37,673 bases of DNA from an uncultured Gammaproteobacteria bacterium. GTDB taxonomy: Bacteria; Pseudomonadota; Gammaproteobacteria; Francisellales; Francisellaceae. Position 1 is the stretch's first letter. The number at the start of each line of letters is the position of its first letter. The position numbers and the translations under genes are program-made. The stretch covers positions 1 through 37,673 of the forward strand of contig CAJXRW010000003.1 of NCBI GenBank assembly GCA_913060525.1. The letters run 5' to 3'. The notes under the pieces were generated by a model. That model saw nothing but the letters and a program-made list of their open reading frames with translations. It was not told where the DNA came from and did no database searches. Of the stretch, positions 8,016 to 24,025 are shown piece by piece.

Positions 8016-11015
8016 ATGTCTACCATTGAGCGTACCGCATATCCAAGATATTCAAAAAGACGAAAAATCAAGCAAAAGGATCTTGATGAATATTACACAC
8101 TGTCTTCAGATGAAGTTGCCTTAATGAATAAACACACAAGAAAGTCTCAGCCAAAACTTAATTTTGCAATTCAGCTAAAGACTTTTCAAAAACTCGGCTA
8201 TTTTATTTCAATAGATGAAATACCAGAAGTGATTATTTTTCATCTAAAGAGATCACTACGATTTCATCACAGAACAAAAGTTGGCTATGATTCGCTTTCA
8301 CCAACAACACTCTATACCCATCGAAATGTTATTCGTACTTATCTGAAAATCACTAAGTGGGAGCATCAAGAGGTTAATGGTAGACGAATAAATGTTGCAA
8401 GAAAATCTGCAATTAAATTTGCATACAACATTTCTCACAACATGAACAATATTGCTGATATCATTAGTGCAGTGGTTCAACACCTCATTGAAAATGGCTA
8501 TGAGCTACCCAGTTTCCATACATTAGACCAGTTAGTCAGACATACTCGCCATACAGTAAATAATAAAATCTTTAATGCAGTGAGTAAGAAAGCCGTATCT
8601 AATGGCACGGACAAGTTATTTACTGAGTTACTTCAAGTTGAAAACAATCATTCACTTTTCAATGACCTTAAGAAACAGCCAAAGAGACCTTCGATTAAAA
8701 GGTTCAGAGATTTTCTGAAGCATTATGAATGGTTGTGCAGTTTGGGTGATATTAATGTTTTTCTATCTGAGGTCGCTAAAGTTAAAGTTGAACAGTTTGC
8801 AGAAGAAGCCAAAAGTTTGACTGCAGATGAAATGAAAAAAATATCAACCTCAAGACAGCACACACTTGTTGCCTCTTTAATATCAAGGTCTCAAGCAATT
8901 TCAAAGGATGCACTCACATCAATGCTTTGCAGAATGGTTGCTTCTGCACATAAAAGCGCTCGCAATGAGCTTGATCAAAAACTTGAAGATAATAAAGCTG
9001 ATTCTTGTGAAGTTGCTGATATTTTAATGAATATTGTTGGGCGATCTAAAACCATTCCACAAGCTAATAGTTATGGTGACTGGGTTTTCAATGAAATAAG
9101 CAAATCTGGTGGCGCAGATGCGATTATTGATAAATGCCAAGATGTAATTATTAGCCATAGTAATGAACATAGGCTATTTCTTTCGCTAAAATTGTTGAGA
9201 AACAGATCACTCCTCTATAGCATCACTCAACGTATTGACCCAAAATCTTCCACAGCGCATCAGGCTTTAATTAATGCGATATCATTTATTTTAGACTACC
9301 AAAATGACAAGCCAAAGTATTTTGATGATGATGTAGATTTATCCTTTACAACTGAATTCTGGAAAAATCGTATTTACACCAATATGAATAGTAAAGTGAA
9401 ATTGAATCGAAAAGAACTAGAAACTAGCGTATTTGAGTTTCTCTCTAAAGGTTTAAATTCTGGTGATATTTATGTCGATGGTGCTGATAACTATGCAGAT
9501 TATCGAGCTGAATTGCTCCCCTGGGATGAGTGTAAAAAGCATTTGGATAAGTTTTGCCAGCAAGTAGGTATTCCAAATAACCCGTTAGAAATGATTAAAA
9601 ATCTAAAGAAGGAATTAATTGAAAAAGCAGATTATGTAGATCAAAATTATCATAACATCCCTGACTTTGTATTGAGTGATGAGGGGATACCCTGTATCAA
9701 AAAGCATGAGCCAAAACCTGCCAGTGAATCAGCGCAAAAACTTGAGTCAATCATAAAATCAAGAATGCCAGAACGATCATTACTGGATGTGCTTTCAAAC
9801 TCAGAATATTACGTTAATTGGACAGCAGAGTGTGGCTCTCTTGATGGGAGTGAATCCAAACTAGACAACCCAGTTGAAAAGTATATTCTTACTACCTTTG
9901 CAAAAGGGACAGGGCTTGGGTTAAATCAAACTTCTAGACACATCCGTAATGAAGTTTCACCACGTGTTTTATCCAGAGTAAACCAGAAACACTTCTCCAT
10001 CAAATCCCTCAATAAATCACTAACCAAAATCATTGATTGTATTAATCAATTTGAACTACCTAAAGCCTGGGGAGACGGGAAGCGATGTGCCGTTGATGGC
10101 ACAATGGAAGACATCAATGACAATAATTTAATTGCTGAGCCACATTTTAGATATCGTAAAAAAGGTGGGGTTGCGTATCATCATGTTGCCGATAACTACA
10201 TTGCCTTATTTTCAACTTTCATTCAGTGTGGTGTATGGGAAGCCATACATATTATTGATGGCTTATTACAAAATGCATCAGAAATTCAACCTAAAATTGT
10301 ACATTCAGACACTCAAGGACAATCTTTACCAGTATTTGCTTTTGCATACCTTTTTGGCATTACTCTAATGCCTCGAATTAGACATTGGAAAAATCTAAAG
10401 ATTTACAGACCAGAAAAAAAGTCAAAATATAAAAATATCGATGATATGTTTTGTGATGCTTGGATTGATTGGAATATGATTGCGACTCACTGGCAAGATT
10501 TAATGCAAGTTATTATTTCCGTTAAAATGGGGAAAGTATCTTCCTCATTCATGCTCAGCAAACTAAACTCTTATAATTATAAGAACAGGCTTTATAAGGC
10601 ATTCCAGGAATTAGGCAAAGTAATCAGGACAACTTTTTTGTTAGATTATATATCAGATATGAACTTACGCCAGAATATTACTGACACAACTAATAAAGCC
10701 GAAGCTTATAATGGTTTGTCAGATTGGGTAAGATTTGGAGCTAAGAAGTTGGTCGCCACAAATGATCCTGATGAAATGGAGAAGTCTATAAAATATAATC
10801 AAATCATTACTAATAGCATTATGCTACAAGATGTTGTCGATATGACAAATATACTCCATGAATTAAAGGATGAAGGTTACGAATATACCAAAGAAGATGT
10901 CAGTTATCTAAGCCCATATATTCGTGAACATCTGAAGCGTTTTGGTGAATATGTATTAGATTTAAACAAGAAGCCTGCAAATATAGATAGGATAAGGGAT
11001 AAAGAGGTGTTTTAA
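8016..11015 (+). CDS. tnpA: Tn3-family transposase
   Basis: A 999-residue transposase, full length for the family (about 950-1010). The C-terminal DDE nuclease is intact: Asp694 (AVDGT), Asp765 (HSDTQG) and Glu896 (KAEAYN). The N-terminal part (about 10-160) carries the family DUF4158-type DNA-binding region. The gene is uninterrupted, so the element may be active. It is divergent from tnpR. A possible right end ending in AGACCCCC lies at 11144-11156. I could not find a matching left inverted repeat, so I cannot say whether the copper genes are its cargo. Confidence 0.95.
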   Translation: MSTIERTAYPRYSKRRKIKQKDLDEYYTLSSDEVALMNKHTRKSQPKLNFAIQLKTFQKLGYFISIDEIPEVIIFHLKRSLRFHHRTKVGYDSLSPTTLYTHRNVIRTYLKITKWEHQEVNGRRINVARKSAIKFAYNISHNMNNIADIISAVVQHLIENGYELPSFHTLDQLVRHTRHTVNNKIFNAVSKKAVSNGTDKLFTELLQVENNHSLFNDLKKQPKRPSIKRFRDFLKHYEWLCSLGDINVFLSEVAKVKVEQFAEEAKSLTADEMKKISTSRQHTLVASLISRSQAISKDALTSMLCRMVASAHKSARNELDQKLEDNKADSCEVADILMNIVGRSKTIPQANSYGDWVFNEISKSGGADAIIDKCQDVIISHSNEHRLFLSLKLLRNRSLLYSITQRIDPKSSTAHQALINAISFILDYQNDKPKYFDDDVDLSFTTEFWKNRIYTNMNSKVKLNRKELETSVFEFLSKGLNSGDIYVDGADNYADYRAELLPWDECKKHLDKFCQQVGIPNNPLEMIKNLKKELIEKADYVDQNYHNIPDFVLSDEGIPCIKKHEPKPASESAQKLESIIKSRMPERSLLDVLSNSEYYVNWTAECGSLDGSESKLDNPVEKYILTTFAKGTGLGLNQTSRHIRNEVSPRVLSRVNQKHFSIKSLNKSLTKIIDCINQFELPKAWGDGKRCAVDGTMEDINDNNLIAEPHFRYRKKGGVAYHHVADNYIALFSTFIQCGVWEAIHIIDGLLQNASEIQPKIVHSDTQGQSLPVFAFAYLFGITLMPRIRHWKNLKIYRPEKKSKYKNIDDMFCDAWIDWNMIATHWQDLMQVIISVKMGKVSSSFMLSKLNSYNYKNRLYKAFQELGKVIRTTFLLDYISDMNLRQNITDTTNKAEAYNGLSDWVRFGAKKLVATNDPDEMEKSIKYNQIITNSIMLQDVVDMTNILHELKDEGYEYTKEDVSYLSPYIREHLKRFGEYVLDLNKKPANIDRIRDKEVF

Positions 11016-21886: not shown

Positions 21887-22222
21887 ATGGCAGCTAGAAA
21901 GAAACGTAAATCCGATATTGAACTCAAAAATGATTTACTAAAAGAAATTGAAAAGCTCAAACAACAGGCAATTGAAATAGACAATAAGCGAGCTGATAAA
22001 ATTGGTCAATTAGCCAAGGATGCGAAAATTACTGACTTGGATGACACGACAATCAAAAAAGAGTTTGAAGCCATTTATACCAAATATCAAAACCAAACTA
22101 GCCCTGAGCATAATGTAAATAAACAAGTAAAAAAGTCAGGGCAAGGTTCAGGAGAGCCAGCGCAAAACTCTCAAGAATCCGCACCAAGCAACGAACAAAG
22201 TCAGCCCGCTCAAAATTTTTAG
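21887..22222 (+). CDS. traC: TraC-like relaxosome accessory protein
   Basis: A 111-residue basic, helical protein. Residues 1-75 resemble TraC-type mobilisation proteins of Ti-like plasmids: an Arg/Lys-rich start, a predicted coiled coil (about 10-36), and ADKIGQLAKDAKITDLDD followed by an EFEAIYTKY-like helix. The last 29 residues are Gln/Ser/Pro/Asn-rich and look unstructured. It is divergent from the relaxase across oriT and probably helps the relaxase bind there. An A-AAA-AAG heptamer in frame at 22129-22135 could shift ribosomes into the traD frame. Confidence 0.75.
   Translation: MAARKKRKSDIELKNDLLKEIEKLKQQAIEIDNKRADKIGQLAKDAKITDLDDTTIKKEFEAIYTKYQNQTSPEHNVNKQVKKSGQGSGEPAQNSQESAPSNEQSQPAQNF
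22129..22135 (+). promoter_or_regulatory. Candidate -1 frameshift site (A AAA AAG) joining traC and traD
   Basis: The traC frame reads GTA-AAA-AAG here, so the bases form the X-XXY-YYZ heptamer A-AAA-AAG, the slippery sequence of E. coli dnaX. The -1 frame is open from 22123 through the traD stop at 22563 and has no ATG, GTG or TTG before 22258. A small stem, GAGAG (22152-22156) with CTCTC (22168-22172), lies downstream, somewhat farther than usual. Confidence 0.45.
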
Positions 22223-22257
22223 CAGGTCTGGCTTTTGAAAAAAGCTCACTTGATTTA

Positions 22258-22563
22258 GTGGATGGTGGTTATATCAGTTCTGATAAGGCGCAACTGATCT
22301 GTTATGACATTATGAGCTTAATTGAATTAAACACGAGTGAGCATAAATACTATGCCATTGGTAGCGACTATTTTGCCAAACCAGAAAGTGAAAAGGATGA
22401 AATAAAACTAGACCTATTAAATAAAACTTTAGGTGATCAATGGCAAAAAATTCGATTTCACAATTTAGTCAGGCTTGGCGGTGATATACAAGCTACTGGT
22501 TTAGGTGAATACCATAAAGCAACCATCATGGGCGCATTTCTAACTTATTCAAAAAACCAATAA
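22258..22563 (+). CDS. traD: TraD-like conjugal transfer protein
   Basis: At least 101 residues from a GTG at 22258. The open frame continues upstream to 22123 and encodes an Arg/Lys-rich stretch and then FLAGLAFEKSSLDLV, which looks like the conserved N-terminal LGGLVVKAGL region of Ti-type TraD proteins. The conserved part therefore begins before the only ordinary start, and that GTG lacks a ribosome-binding site. Either a rare start is used or the protein is made as a TraC-TraD product by -1 frameshifting at 22129. The last 15 bases overlap the convergent traF gene. A role in the relaxosome is inferred from position. Confidence 0.65.
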   Translation: MDGGYISSDKAQLICYDIMSLIELNTSEHKYYAIGSDYFAKPESEKDEIKLDLLNKTLGDQWQKIRFHNLVRLGGDIQATGLGEYHKATIMGAFLTYSKNQ

Positions 22564-23100
22564 TGGTTTATATTCATGCAAGATATTTGCTTGTGGTACT
22601 TCTCCATAATATCGAGAATCCCAACTATAAGTTGGTGAACCGAAACCATAAAACCAATACCCTGTTGCTTTGTATGAACCATTATTAACGAATCTCTTAA
22701 CCGTTAATCCATGTGAATCATGAAACCCAACAGGCGCATAATATACTTTATGATTAACAATAATATCATTATCATTAATCACAATATCATCGCCAGGTAT
22801 GGCAACCACTTCTTTCATTAATGCAGCGTAACCACCTTGGCAATTACCCTCACCAATATAACCCCTATCATAACCATATTTCGCAATATTTTGTGGTAGA
22901 CAAAAACTAACAATTTGCCCTATTTGGATTTTATTATTAAAATTCTTTTGATAATAAAATCCAGTTGGCAAACTTCCTGTATAAGTGAATACAATGCCAC
23001 ATAAATTCATTATTAAATAAAATATAGGTAGAATACTAATTGCTATACTTATCCATAATAGCTTTTTAGTTGTTGGTTTTTTAAATCTTATTCTACTCAT
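22549..23100 (-). CDS. traF: TraF-type S26 signal peptidase
   Basis: A 183-residue membrane-anchored peptidase. One N-terminal membrane helix (about 14-36) is followed by TGSLPTGFYY with nucleophile Ser43, KEVVAIPGDD with the general base Lys96, and SPTYSWDSRYYGEV near the C terminus, the SxDSR-type box of the S26 family. TraF peptidases mature and cyclise the conjugative pilin TrbC or process related proteins. No trbC or other mating-pore gene lies in the window, so the rest of the transfer machinery must be elsewhere. Its 3' end overlaps traD by 15 bases on the opposite strand. Confidence 0.88.
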   Translation of the reverse strand: MSRIRFKKPTTKKLLWISIAISILPIFYLIMNLCGIVFTYTGSLPTGFYYQKNFNNKIQIGQIVSFCLPQNIAKYGYDRGYIGEGNCQGGYAALMKEVVAIPGDDIVINDNDIIVNHKVYYAPVGFHDSHGLTVKRFVNNGSYKATGYWFYGFGSPTYSWDSRYYGEVPQANILHEYKPLLVF

Positions 23101-23363: not shown

Positions 23364-23675
23364 CTACTCAAATACTATTCTTGCTTTTTTACCGATAACC
23401 GCACCAAGCTCACTAATCGTCTTAATAGTAAAATTACCACTACCTTTTATTAATGAATTTGTCTTGGCTGGTTGGTCGCTGAATCCTTTTTGAATTTCAT
23501 TAAACCCAATATTATTATCATTCATGTATTTTTTTAAAGTGTCCGATATATCATGTTGCATGGATGTAACATTATCAGCAATTAACTGGGCTTCATGATC
23601 TATTTTGTTAAATAGATCATTTCCTAATTTTTTTCTTGCTGTTTCCTCAAAAGAAGAAATTTTAATCTTATTCAT
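23364..23675 (-). CDS. HTH antitoxin of a second HigBA-like pair
   Basis: A 103-residue protein beginning MNKIKISSFEETARKKLG. A degenerate XRE-type helix-turn-helix covers about residues 40-98 (DISDTLKKYMNDNNIGFNEIQKGF, then TISELGAVIGKKARIVFE). The AVIGKKARI ending is typical of antitoxins paired with small RelE/HigB toxins. A GGAG sits 9-12 bases before the ATG, and the gene lies 6 bases after the toxin stop. It likely represses the promoter at 24026-24041 together with the toxin. Confidence 0.8.
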   Translation of the reverse strand: MNKIKISSFEETARKKLGNDLFNKIDHEAQLIADNVTSMQHDISDTLKKYMNDNNIGFNEIQKGFSDQPAKTNSLIKGSGNFTIKTISELGAVIGKKARIVFE

Positions 23676-23681
23676 GTCTCT

Positions 23682-23993
23682 TCACTCCAGCTCACTTAAT
23701 AACTTTCTAGCAAGCTTTATATCTTTAGCTTGCTGTTTTTTTGTGTTTTTGTCGCCACCATTTAAAAGCATAATTAGCTTATTTCCTTTAAATGTATAAT
23801 ACGCACGTAACCCCATGTTTTTATCTCTTAACTCAAATAAACTTTTACCTAATGACTTACTCCCCTGCTTAATCGTTGCATTATTGCCTAACCTTTTAAG
23901 GGTTAGAATTTTACGAGTGATTAACGCTGCTTTTTCATCAGTTAAAGATAAAAACCAATCTTGAAATATATTTGTTTCTTTAATTTCCCACAC
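23682..23993 (-). CDS. RelE/HigB-like toxin
   Basis: A 103-residue toxin when started at GTG 23993, which has a well-placed GAGG 8 bases upstream and begins GTG-TGG-GAA like the other toxin in this window. A TTG at 24014 would add 7 residues but lacks support. Core motifs are LGKSLFELRDKNMGLRAYYTFKGNKLIMLLNGGDKNTKKQQAKDI in outline (F-E-L-R and the NGGDKxTKxxQxxDI block), typical of the PF05973 'addiction module killer' family. It would be a ribosome-dependent mRNA interferase. It is the first gene of the pair and its promoter overlaps a perfect palindrome. Confidence 0.88.
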   Translation of the reverse strand: MWEIKETNIFQDWFLSLTDEKAALITRKILTLKRLGNNATIKQGSKSLGKSLFELRDKNMGLRAYYTFKGNKLIMLLNGGDKNTKKQQAKDIKLARKLLSELE

Positions 23994-24025
23994 AATAACA
24001 ACCTCAAGATTCAATTTATATTATA

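Follow-up and report, generated by a model that had tools for sequence, protein, structure and literature searches.

A candidate -1 frameshift joining traC and traD beside a MobA/MobL-type relaxase gene in Francisellaceae

Results

Organization of the traC-traD region

The window analysed here is a 37,673-nucleotide stretch of DNA from an uncultured member of the Francisellaceae (Gammaproteobacteria). It carries a traC gene that partly overlaps an open -1 frame with similarity to TraD, the two being divergent from traA (Table 1). The traC product falls under the cut-off of both available models, scoring 23.9 bits against PF07820 (TraC; cut-off 27.7, E=5e-5) and E=3e-6 against the NCBIfam TraC model. 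Despite the low Pfam score, we regard it as a divergent TraC relative, since its position beside traA and traD fits this assignment. TraA is very large (2640 aa; 2389 aa in the related locus of genome G327), its MobA/MobL relaxase, helicase, DUF7146 and Toprim domains being linked by a long region with no Pfam match. The layout in G327 is the same, with a similar peptidase-like ORF beside traD. Farther along the window, positions 23364-24014 of the minus strand encode a Gp49/HigB-like protein (PF05973) next to a small protein with no hit in Pfam; the two probably form a toxin-antitoxin pair.

Table 1. Features of the traC-traD region (positions are those of the window).
Feature	Position	Strand	Remarks	Basis
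traA	13742-21664	-	2640-aa MobA/MobL relaxase-helicase with Toprim; divergent from traC-traD	Pfam
traC	21887-22222	+	111 aa, ATG start; residues 1-83 (to the slip site) would be common to TraC and the fusion	ORF
-1 frame (traD), stop to stop	22123-22563	+	follows TAA 22120-22122, ends with TAA 22561-22563	Alignment with relatives
Slippery heptamer A_AAA_AAG	22129-22135	+	in phase in traC, read GTA-AAA-AAG-TCA	Sequence
Basic linker/helix, VRARFRRASAKLSRIRTKQRTKSARS	22135-22212	+	26 codons, -1 frame; ungapped in three lineages	
Possible stem-loop (candidate stimulator)	22139-22185	+	3 nt 3' of the heptamer	-14.9 kcal/mol
Second slippery-looking heptamer, A_AAT_TTT	22213-22219	+	immediately 5' of the traC stop, TAG	Sequence
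First TraD-like unit, KFLAGLAFEKSSL ... IGSDYF	22213-22398	+	end approximate	Profile-profile match to ordinary TraD, E=2e-8
Second, partial TraD-like unit, VRLGGDIQATGLGEYHKATIMGAFL	22447-22551	+		PF06412, E=6e-4 (under cut-off); profile-profile, E=2e-8
S26 signal-peptidase-like (TraF-type) gene	22549-23100	-	converges on traD, overlaps its last 15 nt	PF10502, E=1e-10

An in-phase slippery heptamer and a traD frame without an early start codon

The initial annotation of this DNA had proposed that traC and traD are joined by a programmed -1 frameshift, on the grounds that a dnaX-type A-AAA-AAG lies exactly in the traC frame, that the -1 frame is open through traD and encodes a basic linker, and that the TraD-like segment begins upstream of traD's only ordinary start, a GTG devoid of a ribosome-binding site. 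Each of these observations holds upon re-examination. A heptamer of the X_XXY_YYZ type in phase in the upstream ORF is what characterizes -1 frameshifts of the dnaX and insertion sequence (IS) type. The fusion would enter the -1 frame at GTC 22135-22137 and run through a linker in which 11 of the 26 residues are K or R (net charge +11). Between position 22123 and GTG 22258, the -1 frame contains no ATG, GTG or TTG, and no Shine-Dalgarno-like stretch is found 5' of this GTG. Initiation at GTG 22258 would cut off FLAGLAFEKSSLDL, including the conserved FLAGLAFEK motif.

Within the window's genes, to which the background count is confined, the expected frequency of an in-phase A_AAA_AAG is 4.6e-4 per codon, and two are present in 8512 codons, the traC copy included. 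The other copy lies at position 10415, in a Tn3-type transposase gene (8016-11015). Across the approximately 34 codons at which slipping into the -1 frame would be of use, the chance expectation is about 0.016. Taken alone, this estimate makes the heptamer a weak argument; it becomes a strong one because the motif is conserved in relatives (see below). The second slippery-looking sequence, A_AAT_TTT, was rejected as the main slip site, as it is missing in the relatives and a slip there would bypass the conserved helix.

In E. coli, the slipperiness of A_AAA_AAG has been ascribed to the presence of tRNA-Lys(UUU) as sole lysine tRNA (PMC5009743), and the motif ranks among the three most efficient -1 motifs when combined with stimulators (PMC4066793). 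The UUU anticodon is likewise the only one found for tRNA-Lys in G000, G011, G016, G003 and G327; G000 is a fragmented assembly (448 contigs, 84% complete), from which a second tRNA-Lys could be absent. As to stimulators, no clear Shine-Dalgarno element was found upstream of the slip site, and no significant conserved structure downstream of it in the window or the relatives. The candidate stem-loop has a z-score of -1.7, with 14 of 200 shuffled sequences folding equally well (not significant), and is weaker in the relatives.

The putative slip site and the -1 frame are kept in relatives with a long TraD

Homologues with a long TraD were found in the same family, in Cysteiniphilum marinum (L011/L015/L018) and in two copies in C. 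litorale (L012/L019 and L002/L020), species whose order we take to be Francisellales. A fourth such locus, in contig C68 of genome G327 (L022), belongs to another family of the class. The sample thus amounts to five loci from three lineages, window included. Searches of IMG/VR, phages and PLSDB detected no long-TraD homologue, the PLSDB matches being to ordinary TraC and TraD only; phylum samples and repeated class samples yielded no further locus.

TraC of the window is 46 and 45% identical to its Cysteiniphilum counterparts and 34% identical to that of G327. In spite of this divergence, the slip motif is kept. GTA-AAA-AAG-TCA occurs at the homologous TraC residues in all three Cysteiniphilum loci (two species; L011, L012, L020), and G327 carries a run of nine A at this site (ACT-AAA-AAA-AAA-TCC-TAG). 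Relative to traC, traD occupies the -1 frame in every long-TraD locus, and this frame becomes open at the A-run or a few codons 5' of it. The conservation check suggested in the initial annotation therefore turns out in favor of the frameshift. The counter-example that it named, a traD with its own upstream start next to a traC lacking the heptamer, is not encountered within the long-TraD group, save that G327 has a TTG and one of the two C. litorale copies a GTG, both late in the helix and at non-homologous columns; among the more distant ordinary Ti- and pJB12-type plasmids it does exist.

The run of nine A in G327 bears on whether the shift occurs during translation or transcription. A fusion could also be made by RNA polymerase adding an extra A in the run, and nine A is a run length known to provoke such slippage. 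Documented cases of transcriptional slippage as an alternative come from insertion sequences and from secretion genes of Shigella (PMC5009743, PMC4066793). Against it, the window and the Cysteiniphilum loci have only six A followed by G, a short run for RNA polymerase slippage. On the ribosome, such a context constitutes a standard heptamer (PMC4066793). We thus consider a transcriptional origin of the fusion improbable for the group, although the G327 run could act in this way.

The linker is conserved as protein in the -1 frame

If ribosomes slip at the A-run, the stretch that follows should be maintained as protein in the -1 frame. From the slip site to a KF-x-GL-x-FEK motif, the distance is exactly 26 codons, without gaps, in all long-TraD loci, and the ungapped similarity of this stretch was matched by 9/20000, 256/20000 and 2/20000 shuffles in three pairwise comparisons. 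The traC-frame tail past the slip site varies in length (28, 11 and 1 residues). When the three Cysteiniphilum copies are compared, the linker stretch has 7 variable sites. Read in the -1 frame, 6 are silent and 1 leads to a replacement (P=0.002); read in the traC frame, 1 is silent and 6 are replacements. Only 3 of the sites vary 5' of the column holding the C. litorale GTG (2 silent, 1 replacement; P=0.2), a number too small for this part to be assessed by itself. These comparisons indicate that, as read in the -1 frame, the linker is selected at the protein level.

Selection extends along TraD, which is free of stops and shows 14 silent and 5 replacement changes over 97 codons (P=1e-5). This pattern speaks against a trivial explanation of the frame change, namely that traC and traD form one gene, or a dead one, interrupted by an indel arising from sequencing error or decay. 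The fragmented assembly from which the window derives (448 contigs) might have invited such a reading; however, two Cysteiniphilum genomes and G327, each assembled separately, change frame at this very position. We regard this explanation as largely refuted and give it next to no credence.

What the long TraD looks like

The TraD portion of the window comprises approximately 142 aa. Its match to PF06412 (TraD) is weak, lies at the C-terminal end (residues 109-143) and reaches 20.0 bits, compared to a cut-off of 22.3; the G327 homologue passes the cut-off with 28.6. A profile built from four N-terminal parts, linker included, aligned over 78 columns with a profile of eight ordinary TraD proteins (hhalign; 95%, E=2e-8). 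The alignment takes in ordinary TraD over its full length, the helix among it. This bears out the earlier suggestion that the region around FLAGLAFEK is TraD-like, and indicates that the basic linker corresponds to the helix with which TraD proteins usually begin. A second match to the TraD core is given by the C-terminal part (hhalign, E=2e-8), hence the long TraD of the window and of L011, L012 and L022 looks like one TraD unit with a second, incomplete TraD-like unit behind it. An AlphaFold model of TraD is all-helical, with a helix at 3-23 in the linker, and found no match in the PDB; given this and its mean pLDDT of 68, no inference was drawn at the level of the fold.

Ordinary traD genes and the question of an independent start

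TraC and TraD cores homologous to those of the window are found in Ti-type systems (traCDG of the Agrobacterium Ti plasmid and pJB12-like plasmids), where traC also lies beside traD and diverges from a MobA/MobL-type TraA. There, traD is a separate short gene with an annotated ATG, in the +1 frame relative to traC in all 14 loci compared, whereas traD of the window is in the -1 frame, has no start of its own and is longer, with a second TraD-like unit. This difference suggests that in the long-TraD group the slip replaces the start codon. In some ordinary traD genes (L059, L065, L023), the gene's own ATG is followed by the helix, complete or in part. In L023 (G061:C10), a short TraD in the +1 frame has its own ATG and the full basic helix; an in-phase A_AAA_AAG is present in traC near this point, without obvious use as traD is in the +1 frame.

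We also inspected the 75 nt leading up to the annotated ATG of traD in a pJB12-type set (L006, L008, L009, L062, L073-L076, L078 and L080). The traD (+1) frame appears conserved as protein upstream of the annotated ATG, variable sites being distributed 11/7/20 over the three codon positions, and a conserved CTG (TTG in L078) lies within this segment. Judging from these alignments, the annotated ATG is probably not the start of traD in pJB12-type plasmids; translation would begin at the upstream CTG/TTG instead, or some shift would lead into the frame.

These ordinary systems lend some plausibility to the idea that traD is translated independently in the long-TraD group as well, either from a weak or non-standard internal codon of the -1 frame or through translational coupling at the traC stop, with the A-run being incidental. 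Separate traD genes with an annotated ATG, the CTG/TTG shared by pJB12-type plasmids, and the start-like codons present within the group (GTG 22258 in the window, and those noted above for one C. litorale copy and for G327) could all be cited in its favor. Yet, no start or near-cognate codon is common to the loci at a homologous column, the candidates that exist are without a clear Shine-Dalgarno sequence, and GTG 22258 drops the conserved FLAGLAFEK. Moreover, independent initiation does not predict an A-run exactly where the TraD helix begins. We therefore view it as unlikely, if somewhat less so than transcriptional slippage.

Discussion

The conserved slip run, the constant linker and the protein-level selection support the initial proposal, and the relatives make the traC-traD frameshift a strong candidate as far as sequence can tell. 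In the scheme that we favor, and hold to be quite probable, traD would lack a functional start codon. While translating traC, ribosomes would arrive at GTA-AAA-AAG, where the majority would carry on and complete TraC (111 aa). A minority would slip back by one base, both tRNA-Lys(UUU) re-pairing from A_AAA_AAG to AAA_AAA, and would then read GTC-AGG-GCA and onward across the basic helix and TraD up to the TAA ending at 22563, yielding a 225-aa TraC(1-83)-TraD fusion. One mRNA would thus supply TraC and TraC-TraD in fixed proportion, and both would work together with TraA at oriT. The ribosomal nature of the shift, the rate at which it happens and the role of the fused protein are inferred.

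The proposed event resembles the frameshifts of E. coli dnaX and of IS1/IS3-family transposase genes in the type of heptamer, the -1 direction and the sole tRNA-Lys(UUU). As in the IS1/IS3 family, it would fuse two overlapping ORFs; unlike the dnaX shift, which shortens the product, it would lengthen it. It also differs from these cases in affecting relaxosome accessory genes, and in having no clear Shine-Dalgarno stimulator and only a candidate hairpin. Another programmed frameshift joining two ORFs of a conjugative element is that of FseA (msi172-msi171) in Mesorhizobium ICEMlSymR7A, but the latter is a +1 shift and concerns a transcription activator of excision rather than DNA-processing proteins (PMC10359603). 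A +1 shift of this type is ruled out for traC-traD, since the traD frame is -1 relative to traC. We found no frameshift described for TraC/TraD in the literature accessible without subscription, and conjugation genes go unmentioned in the main text of a large survey of frame transitions (PMC3711429).

TraA, TraC and TraD are considered to make up the relaxosome of the Ti plasmid and to act as repressors of their own promoters (PMC3907764). By analogy, a fixed ratio of TraC to TraC-TraD would be expected to act in the relaxosome or in self-repression. We are inclined to believe, with less assurance than for the frameshift itself, that a plasmid or conjugative-element family found across two or more bacterial families uses obligatory -1 frameshifting to fix the ratio of two relaxosome proteins, TraD never being made on its own but always fused to TraC. 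Both the assembly of the relaxosome and its self-repression at oriT would then depend on the efficiency of slippage.

Most known examples of -1 recoding in bacteria come from insertion sequences, phages and dnaX. If the present interpretation is correct, it would also set the dose of the DNA-processing proteins of conjugation. The system would offer a clean evolutionary contrast between relatives with a separate traD in another frame and relatives with a slip site where the TraD helix begins, and the role of the TraC to TraC-TraD ratio could be addressed directly by silent changes in the heptamer. Standard annotation would be overlooking TraD in such elements, or beginning it too late.
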